Assembly: GCA_023151275.1 (NCBI GenBank)
Contig: JAKLJI010000010.1
Span: 1-64,000 of the forward strand
DNA length: 64,000 nucleotides
Direction of reading: 5' to 3'
DNA from: Bacteroidia bacterium
GTDB taxonomy: Bacteria > Bacteroidota > Bacteroidia > UKL13-3
In this document: positions 32,403 to 41,454 of the stretch, one piece after another
Layout of the letters: each line of letters starts with the position of its first letter
Position numbering within the stretch: position 1 is the stretch's first letter
Translations under genes and position numbers: made by a program
The notes under the pieces: model-generated
The model's database searches: none
Seen by the model: the letters and a program-made list of their open reading frames with translations, nothing else
What the model was told of the DNA's origin: nothing

Positions 32403-33263
32403 ATGAAAGGAATTATTCTTGCCGGTGGAAGCGGCACCCGGCTCCACCCCCTCACCATAGCTGTAAGTAAACAGTTGATGCCGGTTTACGATAAGCCCAT
32501 GATTTATTATCCGCTTTCAACCTTGTTGCTTGCCGGAATTCGTGAGATACTTATCATTACTACCCCACATGATGCTGAAGGATTCAGAAAATTATTGGGA
32601 GATGGTTCTCAGATTGGTTGCCGATTTGAATATGCTGTTCAACCTTCACCTGATGGACTTGCACAAGCTTTCATCATTGGTAAAGAGTTCATTGGTAACG
32701 ATAAAGTAGCCTTGGTTTTGGGCGATAATATTTTCTTCAGCGCAGGCTTGAGTTCTTTGCTACAATCCAATAACAATCCGGATGGGGGAGTTGTATTTGC
32801 CTATCATGTAAGCGACCCTGAACGTTACGGCGTTGTTGAGTTTGATGGAAATATGAAGGCCATCAGCATTGAAGAAAAACCTGCAAAACCAAAATCAAAT
32901 TATGCAGTTCCCGGTTTGTATTTTTACGACAATGAAGTGGTGAAAATTGCATCAGAAATAAAACCATCGCCGCGCGGGGAACTTGAGATTACCGATATTA
33001 ACCGTGTTTACCTGGAGCAAGGAAAACTAAAAGTAGGTGTGCTTCAGCGTGGAACCGCCTGGTTAGATACCGGCACCTTTGAATCATTAATGCAGGCTGG
33101 TCAGTTTGTTCAGGTGGTAGAAGAACGCCAGGGATTGAAAATTGGTTGCATTGAAGAAGTGGCCTACCGCATGGGATTTTTAGATGCTGCCGGTTTGGAG
33201 CGAGAAGCTCAAAAGACACTTAAAAGCGGGTATGGTAAATACCTTATGGGATTGTTGAAATAA
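32403..33263 (+). CDS. rmlA: Glucose-1-phosphate thymidylyltransferase
   Basis: 286 residues, normal length. [18 protein letters not shown] is the nucleotide-binding start, [18 protein letters not shown] follows, and VLGDNIF and [15 protein letters not shown] complete the RmlA pattern. It makes dTDP-glucose from dTTP and glucose-1-phosphate, the first step towards dTDP-rhamnose and related sugars. rmlB, rmlC and rmlD are not adjacent. It is followed by the isomerase and phosphatase genes in the same direction. Confidence 0.96.
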
Positions 33264-33295: not shown

Positions 33296-34273
33296 ATGAC
33301 AGAACAACACGAAGCTTTGCGCAAGTTTGCCTATCAAATAAACTATGCCATTGAAAACTATAAGCCACATGGCCTTTCCGCCTCTTCATTTTCCAATGTG
33401 CTGATTGGCGGATTGGGAGGAAGTGGAATCGGAGGTCGTTTGGTAAAGACCATCTTCAACGATGAATTTCCAATTCCTGTTGAAGTGGTTGCCGATTATA
33501 CCTTACCTGCCTATGTAAATAGCCAAACTTTGGTTATTCTGGGTTCTTATTCAGGCAATACCGAAGAAACATTAACCATGTTTGAAGAAGTTCAAAAACG
33601 TGGTAGTCAAATGTTGATTTTGACCTCCGGTGGTAAATTGGGTGAGTGGGCCAAATCAAATAACCTCACAACCTACAACCTGATTCCGGGTTTCCAACCT
33701 CGTATGGCTTTGGGCTTTTCATTAACTTACCTGGTTCAGATTTTTGCAGAGTTGAATGGAAGTTCAAGAACAGAAGAACTGAAAAAAATCAGTGGTCTTT
33801 TTGAAGAAACCGGAAGTTACGAAGCAGATGCAACAGAAATGTTTGAGCAAATCAAGCATAAATCAAAATCCAAATTTGTTGTGCTGGCTGATGCTGCTTT
33901 GGAAGCAGTTGCAACCCGATTTGCTCAACAGATTCAGGAAAATGCCAAGTTGGAATGTTTTACGCATACCTTGCCTGAGCACAACCACAATGTAATTGAA
34001 AGCTATTACGGAACACTTGATTCAGTATTCTTCTTTTTGAACTCAAATGCCAATCCTCGTGTGGCTGCCCGTTTTGAATTCCTGGGCAATTTATTGGCAG
34101 TTGAAAACCATAAAGTTATTGAACTCGGCGTTGAAAACTTGACCCTTGCAGGTGTTTATCAAATGATTCACCGTTTGGATTGGTTGAGCTTGTACGTTGC
34201 CGATTACCGTAGGGTTGATTCGCTGAACGTACCCAATATTGCTTCATTGAAAGAATTTTTAGCAAACGTATAA
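33296..34273 (+). CDS. SIS-domain phosphoglucose/phosphomannose isomerase family protein
   Basis: 325 residues. The N-terminal SIS domain has LIGGLGGSGIGGRLVK near 37-52 and LGSYSGNTEETL near 82-93. The C-terminal half has LPEHNHNVIESY, with the conserved Glu-His, and a SIS-like fold. This layout is that of the bifunctional phosphoglucose/phosphomannose isomerases (PGI/PMI), which interconvert glucose-6-P, fructose-6-P and mannose-6-P. Here it may feed sugar-nucleotide synthesis next to rmlA. 32 bases after rmlA; its stop is directly followed by the TTG of the next gene. Confidence 0.85.
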   Translation: MTEQHEALRKFAYQINYAIENYKPHGLSASSFSNVLIGGLGGSGIGGRLVKTIFNDEFPIPVEVVADYTLPAYVNSQTLVILGSYSGNTEETLTMFEEVQKRGSQMLILTSGGKLGEWAKSNNLTTYNLIPGFQPRMALGFSLTYLVQIFAELNGSSRTEELKKISGLFEETGSYEADATEMFEQIKHKSKSKFVVLADAALEAVATRFAQQIQENAKLECFTHTLPEHNHNVIESYYGTLDSVFFFLNSNANPRVAARFEFLGNLLAVENHKVIELGVENLTLAGVYQMIHRLDWLSLYVADYRRVDSLNVPNIASLKEFLANV

Positions 34274-35035
34274 TTGGGCTTTTTTAATTCAATTTTCGGC
34301 AGCCGCAAGGAACAAAGTTCCGAACCTACAGGGCCATTTGTCAATCCGGTTCAGGTGGAGTTTCATTCCCACCTGATACCCGGAGTTGATGATGGAGTGG
34401 AGACTTTTGAGCAGAGTTTAGAAATCCTGGAAAACTTCCATAAAATGGGAATGCGTAAGGTGATTACCACCCCGCATATCATGAGTGATTTCTATAAGAA
34501 TGGGCCAGAAAACCTAATTCCTTTGCGGGATGAATTGCGATTAAAGCTGAAGGAAAAAGGCATTGATTTGGAGCTAGAGGTTGCTGCCGAATACATGGTT
34601 GATGATGGTTTCCAGGATAAAATTGCAGCGGGAAATTTATTGACATTCGGACCCAAAAAGAGGCATATTCTTATTGAATTGCCTTTTATGGAAGAGCCGC
34701 GCAACTTCAAGCAAAGTATTTTTGAATTGCAGGTAAATGGCTATCAAGTCATACTTGCACATCCCGAGCGCTATCCCTACATGGGTATGCAACGTGAGCG
34801 TTTTTTGGAGCTAAAAGACCAGGGAGTTTTGTTTCAAATGAACATGTTGTCACTTTTGGGTTACTATTCCAAAGGCGTTATGGAAACGGCTCAATACCTG
34901 GTTGAAAAAGGAATGGTTGATTTGGTGGGTTCAGACACACACCATATTCGACATTTTGCACTGCTTCCCGAGGTGCATCAAAACCGCTGGTACCATAAGG
35001 TGTGCCAGGCCGACCTAATAAACAATATATTATGA
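34274..35035 (+). CDS. CpsB/CapC-type PHP tyrosine phosphatase
   Basis: 253 residues. PHP-fold metal motifs: EFHSHLIPGVDDG (His31, His33), TTPHIM (His68), HPERY near 162 and GSDTHH near 221. Related Mn-dependent protein-tyrosine phosphatases control polysaccharide export by dephosphorylating a tyrosine kinase. The start is a TTG immediately after the isomerase stop; the next ATG would remove the HSH motif, so TTG is required. The neighbours support a role in capsule or exopolysaccharide control; no BY-kinase is in the window. Confidence 0.88.
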   Translation: MGFFNSIFGSRKEQSSEPTGPFVNPVQVEFHSHLIPGVDDGVETFEQSLEILENFHKMGMRKVITTPHIMSDFYKNGPENLIPLRDELRLKLKEKGIDLELEVAAEYMVDDGFQDKIAAGNLLTFGPKKRHILIELPFMEEPRNFKQSIFELQVNGYQVILAHPERYPYMGMQRERFLELKDQGVLFQMNMLSLLGYYSKGVMETAQYLVEKGMVDLVGSDTHHIRHFALLPEVHQNRWYHKVCQADLINNIL

Positions 35036-35058: not shown

Positions 35059-36390
35059 ATGCGTAATTTGATTCTCGTACTGGTTGCCTTTACTTTTTTC
35101 GGATTTGAAAGTTTTGCTCAGCGAAACCTGAGAGGAAAAGCGGAAGCCGATTCCTGCATTGCCCTTTTTTTACGTGGCGATTTTAAAGGCCTAAATTCTC
35201 GCTTTGATACGGCCTACCGCTCTTATTACAGCAAGGAAGTTCTGGAGAAAGATTGGAAAGAATTAACAGGAACTTACGGTTCTTATGCTTCACACCGTTT
35301 GGAGCGCTTGGAATCGTATGGCCCAATTACGTTGGTTGGTAATTACCTCAAGTTAGACTATTTGCCATTTCTGATGAATTTAAGTTTCAATCAGGAATGG
35401 AAACTGGTGCACCTCAGTTTTATGCCAACACACAAAACGTATGTAGCTCCCGACTATGTAAATCCGGCCAACTTTGAAGAGTTTGGATTGATGCTCAATA
35501 CCCGGCATTTAATTGCCAATCAAGCCGTAATAAGCGTTCCAAGTGGAAAAGGACCTTTTCCTACCGTTTTTATTGTGGGAGATGCCGGCCCAACAGATCG
35601 TGACAATAGCTTTGAAAACAACAAGCCCTACAAAGACTTGGCTGGTGCATTGGCATCCAATGGTTTTGTGGTTTTCAGAATGGACAAGCGCGGGGTTGGA
35701 AATGGGTTGATGATGCAAAAAGCCCAAATGGCTTACGAGTCGTTTACGTGCAGAGAAGATTACCTGGACGATTTGTATTATGCCTATGATAGCTTAATGA
35801 AAATGCCTTTTGTAGATAAAGACAAGTTGTTTGTTTTAGGGCATGGACAAGGCGGAATTCTCGCCCCATTGGTTTTCAAAGAAAAACCGGGCTTTAAAGG
35901 AGCTATCATGTTGGGTGTAAATCACAAAACCACGCTCGAAACCATGATTGACCAATACAACTACCTCATGAAAGTAACACCGGGTTATCAGGTTACCTAT
36001 GAAATGCAAATCAACAGGGCCAAAAAAGCCATGGATAAAAAGCTGAAGCCATTAACACCCCATGAAGAAATGCCTTACGATATTCCGGCTACCTATTGGA
36101 TTTGGTTGAATAATTATCCGCATGTGAAAATGGCGGCAAAAAGCAATCAGGCTTATTTGTTTTTGCAGGGAGGAAGAGACTATCAAACCAGACCGGAAAA
36201 TCTGGAGCTTTGGAAAAAGAGTATGGCAAAGAAGAAAAATGCCGAGTATAAATTGTATCCAAAGTTAAATCACCAGTTTGAGGAGGGAGATGCAGAAAGT
36301 ACTTATTCCGAGTATTTTATCACCACAAACCTTCCGGCTTACCTCATGACAGATATTGTAGATTGGTTAAAACGGCAATCAGGTAATTAA
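35059..36390 (+). CDS. Exported alpha/beta-hydrolase-fold protein lacking the nucleophile Ser
   Basis: 443 residues. A signal peptide (LILVLVAFTFFGFESFA, cut before QRN) is followed by a DUF3887-like N-terminal domain (about 30-120) and an alpha/beta-hydrolase domain. The nucleophile elbow reads LGHGQGG, with Gly at position 263 where hydrolases have Ser (GHSxGG). Asp374 (GGRDYQT) and His405 (LNHQFEEG), the other triad residues, are present. Probably periplasmic. Either it is a non-catalytic binding protein or it uses another mechanism. Monocistronic, 23 bases after the phosphatase gene, with a -7-like box of its own. Confidence 0.8.
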   Translation: MRNLILVLVAFTFFGFESFAQRNLRGKAEADSCIALFLRGDFKGLNSRFDTAYRSYYSKEVLEKDWKELTGTYGSYASHRLERLESYGPITLVGNYLKLDYLPFLMNLSFNQEWKLVHLSFMPTHKTYVAPDYVNPANFEEFGLMLNTRHLIANQAVISVPSGKGPFPTVFIVGDAGPTDRDNSFENNKPYKDLAGALASNGFVVFRMDKRGVGNGLMMQKAQMAYESFTCREDYLDDLYYAYDSLMKMPFVDKDKLFVLGHGQGGILAPLVFKEKPGFKGAIMLGVNHKTTLETMIDQYNYLMKVTPGYQVTYEMQINRAKKAMDKKLKPLTPHEEMPYDIPATYWIWLNNYPHVKMAAKSNQAYLFLQGGRDYQTRPENLELWKKSMAKKKNAEYKLYPKLNHQFEEGDAESTYSEYFITTNLPAYLMTDIVDWLKRQSGN

Positions 36391-36429: not shown

Positions 36430-38271
36430 ATGGAAGACGCTGGGATACGAATTAGAACTGCTGTAGAAGTTAGGGAATACCTGGTTGAAACAACGCTTAA
36501 GGTATTTGCTATCCTGTCTTTTTTTGCTGTTTTGCTGCTCAGTGGCAGAGCTTACAACTTGGAGTTTACGGTTTCCTATTTTATACAGGTCCCAACCTGT
36601 TTATTCATCATGTTAACCTACCTGTTTCGTGCCAGGTTAAAAACAAAAGTCAAATCACTTATTCTTTCTTTTGGATTGATTTTAATATTGGCCTCAGGTA
36701 TTTTAAGTTATGGAATTCTGGCCTCTACCAAGCATTTAATCATTTTAATACCTGTTTTCTCATCCATGTTGTTTGGATTCAGGAAGGCGCTTCAGGTTTT
36801 TCTTTCTGTTTTGTTGATTTACATCGGCTTGGGAGTTTTGCATATTCTGGGATTTCTCCAATTGCCCAGAAACGCTGACCTGCTTGTTCGCAGCCCGAGT
36901 ACCTGGATTTTGGATGTCTTTATTCTCTTGGCTTCGGGACTGGTAATTCTGCAATTGGTTCATAATTTTCTGGAAGTATTGAATATGCAGTTTGAAAAGG
37001 CTGCGGTTCAGCATCAAGTTTTGAGTAAACAGGAGGAAGAGTACCGCACCCTGTTTGAGCAAACTCGGGATTCTGTTTTTTTACTCGAGGGAACACAAAT
37101 TATTCGCATGAATAGTTCGGCAAAAGCCCTGAGTGCTCAAATTCTGCATGGTGAGTTGCTTGATGATTTCTGCAAATTATTACCTCCAGAACAACCTAAT
37201 GGGCAAGAAAGTAAGCCTTATTTTAAGGCGCAATTGAAAAAACTGAGCGAAAGGAATAACATGCATTTTGAAATCCAGTTGCTCACGGCAGAGGGCAAAT
37301 GGGCTTTTTTTGAAATTTCTTCCAGTGTAATTCTTACGGCAGAAAAAGAGTACACGCAGCTGATTTTAAAGGACATTAGCTCCAGAAAGCGACAGGAAGA
37401 GGAAATTCGCCAAAATCGAATTGAATTGGAACAGCGGGGGATAGAGCTTGAAAAAATAAATGAAGAGCTTCAGCGTGGAAATTCAGCCTTGCTTCAGAAA
37501 AAAGACGAGCTTGAAGATGCATTGATGAAATTGCAATCCACCCAAAGCCAATTGATCGAAACCGAGAAAATGGCTTCCTTAGGTATTCTTACTGCCGGTG
37601 TTGCTCATGAAATAAACAATCCGCTTAACTTCATTCAAAGCAGCTTGTATGCCATGGATGAAATTCTTGAAGATTCAAGCTTGGAGGCCCACATTGAGTT
37701 GAGAACTGAATTGAACCTGCTCCGCAATACCATGCAAACCGGAATCTCCAGGGTATCGGAAATCGTGAAAAGCCTCAATCATTTTAGCCGCAAAAGCGAT
37801 GATAAACGAGAGCCTGTTCTTCTTTCAAAAATCATTCAAAACTGCCTCGCTATCCTAAATCATGAACTTAAGAATAGGGTGCGTGTTTTTGTTGATTTTC
37901 TCGAGAATGAACCACAGATTCTTGGCAATGAAAGCAAATTGCATCAGGTTTTTCTGAATTTGATATTGAATGCAGCTCAAGCTATTCCGGGAAAGGGTGA
38001 AATCGAAATCAACTTTAAAACCCTACACCAGCAATTTTGTGTTGAATTAATTGATACCGGAACCGGAATTCCTCCTCAAATTCTGGAGAAAATTTTCGAC
38101 CCTTTTTTTACCACAAAACCGGCCGGAAAAGGCACAGGCTTAGGACTTTCAATTGTTCAGCAAATTGTTCATGACCACCAAGGAAGTATCCGGTTTGAAT
38201 CCAATCCCGGAAAAGGCACGCGGGTAATTCTGAATTTCCCGATATTGCCTGCGGAAAATGGAAAAGCCTAA
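36430..38271 (+). CDS. Membrane sensor histidine kinase with PAS domain
   Basis: 613 residues. Six membrane segments (about 25-180) form the sensor. A PAS domain follows (FEQTRDSVFLLEGTQII, about 210-320), then a long coiled coil (320-380). The HisKA box is GVAHEINNPLNF, with His393. The HATPase has NLILNAAQAIPG, DTGTGIPPQILE and the GKGTGLGLSIVQ lid. This is a full, active-looking kinase. It overlaps the receiver gene by 14 bases, so that receiver is its likely partner. The ligand is unknown. Confidence 0.93.
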   Translation: MEDAGIRIRTAVEVREYLVETTLKVFAILSFFAVLLLSGRAYNLEFTVSYFIQVPTCLFIMLTYLFRARLKTKVKSLILSFGLILILASGILSYGILASTKHLIILIPVFSSMLFGFRKALQVFLSVLLIYIGLGVLHILGFLQLPRNADLLVRSPSTWILDVFILLASGLVILQLVHNFLEVLNMQFEKAAVQHQVLSKQEEEYRTLFEQTRDSVFLLEGTQIIRMNSSAKALSAQILHGELLDDFCKLLPPEQPNGQESKPYFKAQLKKLSERNNMHFEIQLLTAEGKWAFFEISSSVILTAEKEYTQLILKDISSRKRQEEEIRQNRIELEQRGIELEKINEELQRGNSALLQKKDELEDALMKLQSTQSQLIETEKMASLGILTAGVAHEINNPLNFIQSSLYAMDEILEDSSLEAHIELRTELNLLRNTMQTGISRVSEIVKSLNHFSRKSDDKREPVLLSKIIQNCLAILNHELKNRVRVFVDFLENEPQILGNESKLHQVFLNLILNAAQAIPGKGEIEINFKTLHQQFCVELIDTGTGIPPQILEKIFDPFFTTKPAGKGTGLGLSIVQQIVHDHQGSIRFESNPGKGTRVILNFPILPAENGKA

Positions 38272-38632
38272 AGTCCTGTATATCGACGATGAACCCATCA
38301 ATTTGGAATTGTTTCGCATGATGTTCCGGTCGAGTTTGCAGGTTTTAATTGCCAATACCCCGGAAAAAGCGCATGAACAGTTGCAGGAAAATCCGGAGAT
38401 TCAGGTGTTGATTTCTGACTTAAATATGCCGGAAATGAATGGCTACCAGTTGATTGAACAGCTTCATAGCCAGTTCAGACCAATTCCTGCTTTTATCCTC
38501 AGTGGTCATCACCCTGATGATGCCATCAACCAACATCCTTACAAAGAAAAAATCACAGGCTATTTTCAAAAGCCATTGGATAAAAACCATATCCTCAACG
38601 AGATAAACAAAGCCATAGGGACTAATAACTAA
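38258..38632 (+). CDS. Single-domain response regulator
   Basis: 124 residues, receiver only. Asp10 and Asp11 (VLYIDDEP), the phosphoacceptor Asp54 (LISDLNMPEMNG) and Lys near 108 (FQKPLD) are all present. There is no output domain, so it probably acts by protein-protein contact or in a phosphorelay. Co-translated with the kinase just upstream. Confidence 0.93.
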   Translation: MEKPKVLYIDDEPINLELFRMMFRSSLQVLIANTPEKAHEQLQENPEIQVLISDLNMPEMNGYQLIEQLHSQFRPIPAFILSGHHPDDAINQHPYKEKITGYFQKPLDKNHILNEINKAIGTNN

Positions 38633-38718: not shown

Positions 38719-41454
38719 ATGGACAAGTTCTCGTATATCAGCAATGCAGATGTTAATGTGATTGATTCAATGCACCAGCAATGGATGGCAAATCCTGAAT
38801 CCGTTGATTTTGGTTGGCAGAAATTCTTTGAAGGTTTTGAATTCAATCAACTCAAGTTTCCTCAGAAAGGGCAATCAGCAACTACAGCTGTTAGCGATGA
38901 TACGCTCAAAGAAATCAATGTGCTTAACCTCATTCACGGTTACCGTAGCCGAGGTCATTTGTTTACCAAAACCAATCCGGTTCGCGAGCGTCGTTCCTAT
39001 TCGCCCACGCTCGATATCCAGAATTTTGGTTTGAGCCAAGCCGATTTGGACAAAACCTTCAATGCCGGTATTGAATTGGGTCTGGGTCCCGCTAAATTAA
39101 AAGATATTGTTAGTCACCTGCAACAAACCTATTGCCAAAGCATTGGTGCAGAATACATGTATATCCGCCAGCCCCAAAAGGTGGAATGGCTGAAAAAGAA
39201 GCTTGAATCAAAACGCAATACACCCGAAATTGGCCTGGATGAAAAAAGACATATCCTCGCTAAACTTAATCAGGCTACAGTTTTCGAGAATTTCCTGCAT
39301 ACCAAGTTTGTTGGCCAAAAACGTTTTAGCCTCGAAGGATTAGAAACGCTTATCCCGGCTTTGGATGCCGTTATTCAATACGGCGCTGAAATTGGAGTGG
39401 AAGAGTTTATTTTGGGAATGGCACACCGTGGACGTTTGAATGTGCTTGCCAATATTTTGAATAAAACCTACGAGGAAATCTTCAAAGAGTTTGAAGGCAA
39501 GGCTGCCGAAGACGATGGCTTGTTTGAAGGGGATGTGAAATACCATTTGGGCTTTAGTGGTGATATGGTTACTCGCAGTGGCAAATCGGTTCACCTGAGC
39601 CTTGCTCCAAACCCTTCGCACCTTGAAACGGTAAACCCGGTGGTTAAGGGCATTACCCGCGCCCGTATCGAAAACCGCTACCAAAATGATATTGATAAAG
39701 TAGCTCCAATTCTTATTCACGGTGATGCCTCGGTTGCTGGTCAGGGAATTGTTTACGAGATTCTTCAAATGGCTGGTTTAAAGGCTTACAATGTGGGAGG
39801 TTGCATTCATATTGTTGCCAATAACCAAATTGGATTTACAACCAATTATACAGATGCACGTACCTCTACCTATTGCACAGATGTAGCCAAGGTTACGCTT
39901 TGTCCGGTATTTCACGTTAATGCAGATGATGTGGAAGCAGTGGTGCATACCATCAAGCTGGCCATGGAGTATAGACAAGAGTTCAACAGCGATGTGTTTA
40001 TCGACCTGTTGGGGTACCGCAAATACGGACATAACGAGGGCGACGAACCTCGTTTCACTCAGCCTGTACTTTATAAAGCCATTGCGGCACATCCAAATCC
40101 GCGCGAAATTTATGCGCAGAAACTTTCTCATGCCGGTTCTGTTGAAGCTGAACTTGCCAAGGAAATGGAGCTTGAATTCAAGAAACTCCTTCAGGAAAAA
40201 CTTGAATCGGCCAAACAGGCCGCCCCTTCAAAGGCCAAAAGTTATATCAAACGCACTTGGGAAGGTTTCCGTTCTCCCAATCAAGACGATTTCCAGCAAT
40301 CTCCGGTTACAGCGGTTTCCCGTGAGTTGTTCCTCAACCTGGCTGAAAAACTTACTCGTATTCCGGATGGATTTAAGGCCATTAGCAAAATTGAAAAACT
40401 TTTCCGCGACCGTGCAGCCATGCTCAGTAACAATAGCCTTGATTGGGCTATGGGCGAATTGATGGCTTATGCAACACTGGCGCATCAGGGCCACCGTGTG
40501 CGAATGACCGGTCAGGATGTGGAACGTGGAACCTTTTCGCATCGCCATGCCATTATTCGTGCAGAAGAATCGGAAGTGCCTTATAATATTTTTGATAACC
40601 TGAAAGAGGATATCAAAGCCGATGTGCGTTTTTACAATTCCCTCCTGAGCGAATATGCCGTTCTTGGTTTTGAGTACGGTTATTCCATGATTAGTCCAAA
40701 TGATTTAACCATTTGGGAGGCTCAGTTTGGTGACTTTGCCAATGGTGCTCAAATTATTATCGACCAATACATTGCCAGTGCAGAAACCAAATGGAAAACT
40801 TACAGTGGCCTGGTAATGATGCTTCCTCATGGTTACGAAGGCCAGGGTCCGGAGCACTCTTCTGCACGTCCCGAGCGCTTCTTGCAACTGTGTGCCAACT
40901 GGAACATGCAGGTTTGCAACATCACCACTCCGGCTAATTATTTCCACGCCTTGCGCAGGCAGCTCGAAGGCCGCGATTTCCGCCTTCCATTAATTGTTAT
41001 GACACCTAAGAGTCTGCTTCGTCACCCCATGTGCGTGAGTAAAATTGAAGACTTTACCACAGGTGGATTCCAGGAAGTAATTGATGATACTTATGTTGAT
41101 GCCAAAAAGGTAAAACGCGTTCTGATTTGTACCGGCAAAATCTATTACGAATTGTTAGAGCGTCAACAAAAAGAACAGCGTAAAGACGTTGCCATTGTTC
41201 GCCTCGAGCAATTGTATCCAATGCCGGCTCAACAGCTTACCGCCATATACGAGAAGTACAAAAAAGCAGAGAAAGTTTGGGTTCAGGAAGAACCTAAGAA
41301 TATGGGCTATTGGTTGTACTTGCTTCGTTGGGACAGTAACCGCATTCTTCAGCGCATTTCGCGTGAATCAAGTGCATCGCCTGCAACCGGATTTAGCAAG
41401 GTTCACGCCAGAGAACAAGAAGCCATTATTACCAAAGCATTTACCATCGAGTAA
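38719..41454 (+). CDS. sucA: 2-oxoglutarate dehydrogenase E1 component
   Basis: 911 residues, typical length. It has the N-terminal E1o segment (DVNVIDSMHQQWMANPESVD), MAHRGRLNVLANIL near 234, and the thiamine-diphosphate motif GDASVAGQGIVYE ending in NNQIGF. GQDVERGTFSHRHA is in the Pyr domain, and HGYEGQGPEHSSARPERFLQ follows. It decarboxylates 2-oxoglutarate and passes the succinyl group to E2. The E2 gene sucB, which commonly follows, is absent here; a terminator follows instead. Confidence 0.98.
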   Translation: MDKFSYISNADVNVIDSMHQQWMANPESVDFGWQKFFEGFEFNQLKFPQKGQSATTAVSDDTLKEINVLNLIHGYRSRGHLFTKTNPVRERRSYSPTLDIQNFGLSQADLDKTFNAGIELGLGPAKLKDIVSHLQQTYCQSIGAEYMYIRQPQKVEWLKKKLESKRNTPEIGLDEKRHILAKLNQATVFENFLHTKFVGQKRFSLEGLETLIPALDAVIQYGAEIGVEEFILGMAHRGRLNVLANILNKTYEEIFKEFEGKAAEDDGLFEGDVKYHLGFSGDMVTRSGKSVHLSLAPNPSHLETVNPVVKGITRARIENRYQNDIDKVAPILIHGDASVAGQGIVYEILQMAGLKAYNVGGCIHIVANNQIGFTTNYTDARTSTYCTDVAKVTLCPVFHVNADDVEAVVHTIKLAMEYRQEFNSDVFIDLLGYRKYGHNEGDEPRFTQPVLYKAIAAHPNPREIYAQKLSHAGSVEAELAKEMELEFKKLLQEKLESAKQAAPSKAKSYIKRTWEGFRSPNQDDFQQSPVTAVSRELFLNLAEKLTRIPDGFKAISKIEKLFRDRAAMLSNNSLDWAMGELMAYATLAHQGHRVRMTGQDVERGTFSHRHAIIRAEESEVPYNIFDNLKEDIKADVRFYNSLLSEYAVLGFEYGYSMISPNDLTIWEAQFGDFANGAQIIIDQYIASAETKWKTYSGLVMMLPHGYEGQGPEHSSARPERFLQLCANWNMQVCNITTPANYFHALRRQLEGRDFRLPLIVMTPKSLLRHPMCVSKIEDFTTGGFQEVIDDTYVDAKKVKRVLICTGKIYYELLERQQKEQRKDVAIVRLEQLYPMPAQQLTAIYEKYKKAEKVWVQEEPKNMGYWLYLLRWDSNRILQRISRESSASPATGFSKVHAREQEAIITKAFTIE

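Follow-up and report, generated by a model that had tools for sequence, protein, structure and literature searches.

In the window, that is, the whole stretch of 64,000 nucleotides analysed (positions 1 to 64,000 of contig JAKLJI010000010.1 of a Bacteroidia bacterium), one gene encodes a protein of the alpha/beta-hydrolase fold with Gly in place of the nucleophile Ser. The locus raises the question of whether such a protein is a broken gene, an enzyme working through another residue, or a maintained protein that has left catalysis. The features of the locus are listed in Table 1.

Table 1. Features of the EstD-like locus and its surroundings in the window.
Feature	Positions	Strand	Basis or remark
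Sugar nucleotidyltransferase neighbour (PF00483)	32403..33263	+	
Bacterial PGI-type SIS isomerase neighbour (PF10432)	33296..34273	+	
CpsB/CapC-like neighbour (PF19567), upstream	34274..35035	+	Conserved in g1, g3, and g10; 23-base gap to the hydrolase gene
EstD-like alpha/beta-hydrolase gene without Ser, 443 aa	35059..36390	+	ORF and profile matches
Signal-peptide-like N-terminus, hydrophobic run ending SFA-Q	35059..35118	+	Judged by eye
N-terminal region resembling DUF3887, residues 30-118	35146..35412	+	22.6 bits, sub-threshold (cut-off 31.8)
Asp175, codon GAT, replacing Gly of the HG-x-G oxyanion motif	35581..35583	+	Homologue alignment, solved-hydrolase alignments
Gly263, codon GGA, replacing the nucleophile Ser; elbow GHGQGG	35845..35847	+	Sequence, homologue alignment
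Asp374, codon GAC, retained catalytic-acid position, in RDYQ	36178..36180	+	Homologue alignment
His405, retained catalytic-base position, in LNH	36271..36273	+	Homologue alignment
sucA, 2-oxoglutarate dehydrogenase E1; in many relatives the immediate downstream neighbour of the hydrolase gene	38719..41454	+	

The Pfam search placed the protein in the alpha/beta-hydrolase fold, with PF12146 at 48.6 bits (cut-off 27) and scores above the cut-offs for PF00326 and PF01738. Judged by profile matching, its closest named family is esterase EstD (NF041096), which matched over the full length (residues 1-440 to model positions 1-420 of 421, 228.3 bits, E 1.7e-67); this score lies below the curated cut-off of 600, and the protein falls outside the EstD equivalog. 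The Ser-bearing paralogue in the same genome (G000:C55, GHSQGG, 30% identity) reached only 294 bits against NF041096, also below the cut-off. The AlphaFold model, built from a five-row alignment, had a mean pLDDT of 58.6, with residues 175-188 and 404-423 below 50. Foldseek with this low-confidence model matched alpha/beta hydrolases, which confirmed the fold alone; at the active-site loops the model is too poor for choosing between a pseudoenzyme and new chemistry. No relatives were found in viral contigs in two scans (P0001 and alignment A2), and a viral origin was dropped.

The altered elbow and the retained Asp374 and His405, first described in the sequence-only reading, were borne out by the sequence and the homologue columns. 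Among 120 homologue rows with Ser at the column of residue 263, Asp occupied the column of Asp374 in 119 of the 119 rows with a letter, and His occupied that of His405 in 118/118. In printed alignments with solved Ser hydrolases, their Ser fell on Gly263 (3/3 and 4/4), the alignments stopping short of the His. Of the motifs of EstD and family X, the window protein has the catalytic Asp and His; it shows GHGQG for the GxSxG nucleophile motif and GDAG, with Asp175 for Gly, for the HGxG-type oxyanion motif. The same reading had argued that Ser to Gly needs two base changes and that a sequencing error was hence unlikely. The argument is flawed, since AGT or AGC becomes GGT or GGC by one change; GGA differs from AGT and AGC at two bases, the second difference being synonymous. 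Because a one-base route to Gly exists, the case against a sequencing error rests on the relatives, which share the Gly (codons GGA, GGT, GGC, or GGG) and make such an error unlikely after all.

Whether homologues share Gly263 was answered with a strong yes. A member of what is called here the Gly clade was found in 36 of 64 available genomes of the order (searching by family and by order gave one and the same set of 64), with Gly at the elbow in 36/36. These genomes belong to five genera: g1 (4), g3 (19), g6 (10), g7 (1), and g10 (2). The clade received an SH-aLRT of 100 in a 112-row tree with 40 clade rows, four of which were duplicates from named records, and 100/100 in a carefully built tree of 71 rows, 24 of them from the clade, that left out the active-site columns. 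No members were found outside the order in samples of 395 class genomes (E up to 1e-45) and 395 phylum genomes (E up to 1e-40). For its union with the g8/g11 group (L020, L021, L022, and L027), the AU test gave neither support nor rejection (p 0.349). Loci that were weak or duplicated (L002, a copy of L045; L003; L052-L056) were left out of the counts, rows shorter than 250 aa (L028, L100, and L104) were left out of the trees, and the duplicates L058, L059, L067, and L068 (proteins L005, L004, L006, and L007, respectively) were removed from later counts. L238, with a misread start, was excluded from the 178-row analysis. Loci that repeated proteins already in the data set (L120-L123, L127, L129, L131, L147, and nine from L191 to L223) were also dropped.

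Nei-Gojobori estimates indicated purifying selection in the clade despite the loss of an essential catalytic residue. Pairwise dN/dS was 0.025-0.131 in nine Gly-clade pairs with dS below 1, 0.032-0.048 in four pairs with dS of about 2, and 0.174 between the window protein and L008 (dS 2.9), vs 0.023-0.162 in six Ser-type pairs. His405 was found in 34/34 covering clade rows and Asp374 in 32/34, with Asn in L075 and L077; Gly263, Asn404, Tyr375, Gln376, Arg207, Lys210, Arg211, and Asp182 were likewise invariant in the covering rows. Among the residues specific to the clade are Asn381, where Ser types have Asp/Glu, and Trp349, Tyr416, and Ser417. A gene drifting to death would not be expected to show such selection and residue constancy; the shared Gly together with strong selection points to a maintained protein with a changed job, not a broken gene. 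Another Ser predicted at the active site, which the sequence-only reading had named as evidence against its own view, was sought in the aligned rows. None of the Ser, Thr, or Cys positions was both constant in the Gly clade and absent from Ser-bearing relatives, but two positions were enriched and stay as candidates: position 179 is Ser/Thr in all clade rows vs 23% of Ser-bearing rows, and Ser417 is present in 97% vs 20%.

A second change, absent from the earlier reading, is the best clue to mechanism. Position 175, onto which the G of the HG-F oxyanion motif of solved hydrolases falls in 4/4 printed alignments, is Gly in 117/117 homologue rows with Ser in an intact elbow. In the 58 rows without this Ser, it is Glu (23), Asp (14), Gly (12), Ala (7), Ser (1), or Asn (1). 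Within the Gly clade, 29/36 rows carry Asp or Glu; the remaining seven, all from genus g6, carry Ala175 together with Glu264, so that an acid at 175 is not needed everywhere. Every clade row (36/36) has an acid at 175 or 264. The pair of Gly263 and acid-175 was also found in L027 (genus g11, same order), in L108 (another family of the class), and in L091b2, a tandem copy adjoining a Ser-bearing one; the Asp and His are kept alongside it in L027 and L108. A tree constrained to hold L027 within the Gly clade is worse by 31 log-likelihood units (AU p 0.0076), which shows that its paired change is independent of the clade. Acids at 175 accompany other altered elbows in L139/L234, L141, and L144/L243, and L237, L241, and L242 combine Asp175 with Ser in a broken elbow, APSLAA.

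Separate losses of Ser near the Gly clade are indicated by the Ser-less L027 and L021. In both species of genus g11, the hydrolase gene lies directly before sucA; it carries Ser in L148/L022 and Gly with HDSG in L149/L027. In genus g8, L150/L020 has Ser and L151/L021 has Asp at the elbow (GHDQGG), the only GHD elbow among the aligned rows; three upstream genes at these loci look alike by eye from their printed starts. Elsewhere, tandem EstD-like paralogues occur in G058, G061, and G064 (L091, L087, and L099), one copy with GHSEGG and one Ser-less with the elbow GHGLGG, GYDLGG, or AHGESA, other motifs being partly altered. In family f89, L135, L136, L138, L228, L231, and L233 (genus g285) form a separate Ser-less group with GHGTGG, a kept oxyanion HGSG, and His405 replaced by Tyr (LNY) in 6/6 rows, and L203 and L229 (genus g282) have a GHGLGG elbow with Gly175 kept and a Ser-bearing relative, L126, in the same genus. 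The proteins L142, L144, L237, and L241-L244 (family f114, genus g305) are longer, 478-557 aa as read, with the elbow AP[SNT]LAA and HDQG at the oxyanion loop in 5/7.

The gene order is shared within part of the clade. The CpsB/CapC-like gene is followed by the hydrolase gene in 25/25 genomes of g1, g3, and g10, two of which (G030 and G065) were judged by coordinates on one contig. Further upstream in relatives, a SIS-type isomerase was found, and in L004-L007 and L154 a sugar nucleotidyltransferase; the one in the window we take to be RmlA-like. Downstream, sucA is directly next in 17 of the 22 g1, g3, and g10 genomes with a continuing contig, the window excluded. In the window, a histidine kinase and a response regulator (36430-38632) lie between the two genes. 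A role in surface saccharides is hinted at by these neighbours, but not all genera share the gene order: the CpsB-like gene and the hydrolase gene stand on separate contigs in 11/11 genomes of g6 and g7, which makes the locus weak functional evidence. The conserved neighbourhood may reflect only chromosomal inheritance.

Taken together, we consider it rather likely that the window protein is an EstD-like (bacterial lipolytic family X) pseudoenzyme, conserved and probably secreted, whose old pocket now serves to bind a ligand. With no nucleophile at the elbow and an acid in place of the oxyanion-loop Gly, ordinary Ser-type hydrolysis is excluded as far as sequence can exclude it. In another alpha/beta esterase, a Ser-to-Ala change is reported to have abolished activity (PMC5171882). 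By our reading of the HG-x motif, position 175 would be the residue just before the second oxyanion-hole residue. According to a survey of the fold, that second residue commonly binds the ligand, and its two flanking residues are also much involved (PMC7034887); on this ground, a side chain at 175 could probably reach the vacated site. An ancestral member of the family would have lost the nucleophile Ser, the Ser-less form then becoming fixed in several genera of the order, and the Asp374-His405 side would have been kept because the pocket still has work. In the geometry supposed for Asp175, the carboxylate would fill the volume freed by the missing Ser side chain and oxyanion and would hold His405 in position; ester hydrolysis of the usual Ser type would then be impossible. 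The most likely ligand would carry an ester or acyl group and, with sugar-nucleotide and CpsB-like genes nearby, may be a saccharide. The protein may then act as a binder, sensor, or adaptor, either periplasmic or secreted, with a presumed location outside the cytoplasm. The sequence-only reading had offered two options, a binding or scaffolding role and activity through a different residue; the two hypotheses were well chosen, and this reading is partly supported.

Retention of His and Asp is also what is expected of a rewired enzyme, in which the carboxylate at 175 (264 in g6) would form with His405 and Asp374 a new centre able to activate water, to attack the substrate, or to coordinate a metal. 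The group acting as nucleophile or base would have moved from the elbow to the oxyanion loop. The unbroken presence of an acid at 175 or 264, the constancy of His405, the near constancy of Asp374, and the repeated paired change in L027 and L108 are consistent with such a centre, as is the elbow Asp of L021. Haloalkane dehalogenases and epoxide hydrolases have their nucleophile, an Asp, at the elbow. They resemble the window protein in having a carboxylate beside the His of an alpha/beta-hydrolase pocket; they differ in that the window protein has Gly263 at the elbow and its acid on the oxyanion loop. On the other hand, acid-175 also occurs where His is lost (L139 and L141) and so does not need the catalytic His, Glu264 is common in Ser-bearing rows (GHSEGG) and is thus no special gain, the seven g6 rows have Ala175, and the structure model is too poor for judging the site. 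A rewired enzyme is, on balance, unlikely, though it is the main rival reading. A more specific and rather doubtful proposal is that the nucleophile has migrated, with a catalytic Asp/Glu175 on the oxyanion loop joined to the former His-Asp pair and only Gly left at the elbow, and that this switch evolved more than once. If true, alpha/beta-hydrolase pockets could change repeatedly from a Ser-based centre to one based on a carboxylate.

It is improbable that the protein is a relaxed leftover, kept for its fold or its N-terminal domain while the pocket drifts after the loss of catalysis. Acid-175 would then simply be what Gly is likely to mutate to in one step (GGN to GAN is one transition) when the oxyanion hole no longer depends on it, and a number of Ser losses did occur without it (L021, L087b2, L099b2, L105, L203/L229, the L135 group, and L142/L244). 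The tree-based association test between Ser loss and acid-175 was also not significant: the 128-row tree gave seven independent pairs, with the acid varying the same way in 1-5 per pairing and none opposite, and the 178-row tree gave ten, with a mean of 2.7 the same way and none opposite, differing pairs too few for the sign test to reach 0.05. Against drift stands the constancy of His405, Asn404, Tyr375, and Gln376 in the Gly clade, whereas other Ser-less relatives often lose the His too (the L135 group, L139, L141, L099b2, and L142). A one-step codon model, with seven acids in nine lineages with replaced Gly175, gave P of 0.0001-0.026 for a transition bias of 1 to 8, but the lineage count was made by eye with the trees already known, and L139 and L141 may share one origin. 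With so few events and with Ser losses lacking the acid, the coupling of Ser loss with acid-175 is likely real, though not statistically proven. A pseudogene or a sequencing or assembly error, for which only the altered motif itself speaks, has next to no probability, given a Gly elbow common to 36 genomes, open frames, and purifying selection.

One of the nearest known proteins is EstD of Thermotoga maritima (family X, NF041096), to which the window protein is similar in its full-length match and its kept Asp and His positions; the two differ in that EstD has GHSLG, and the window protein has Gly for this Ser and Asp for the HG glycine. EstD, a GHSLG enzyme, is reported to be inhibited 96% by PMSF (PMC6622161). 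A weak sequence match was obtained with the structure 4wjl of DPP10, titled 'Inactive dipeptidyl peptidase 10'. DPP10 and the neuroligins are alpha/beta-hydrolase proteins with the Ser replaced that work by binding; they are animal proteins from other branches of the superfamily. In an open-licence library, judged by titles and abstract openings, no account of Ser-less EstD-like proteins was found. Ser-less alpha/beta-hydrolase proteins were already known in animals; what appears to be new is a bacterial EstD-like clade with a repeated paired change.

The best-matching curated profile is that of an esterase, yet the Gly lineage is without the residue that carries esterase chemistry. Sister species with Ser-bearing and Ser-less versions (L022/L027 in g11 and L020/L021 in g8) provide a natural experiment. 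With its apparently paired active-site change, the family allows a direct test of how a binding protein, or an enzyme with altered chemistry, arises from a hydrolase.
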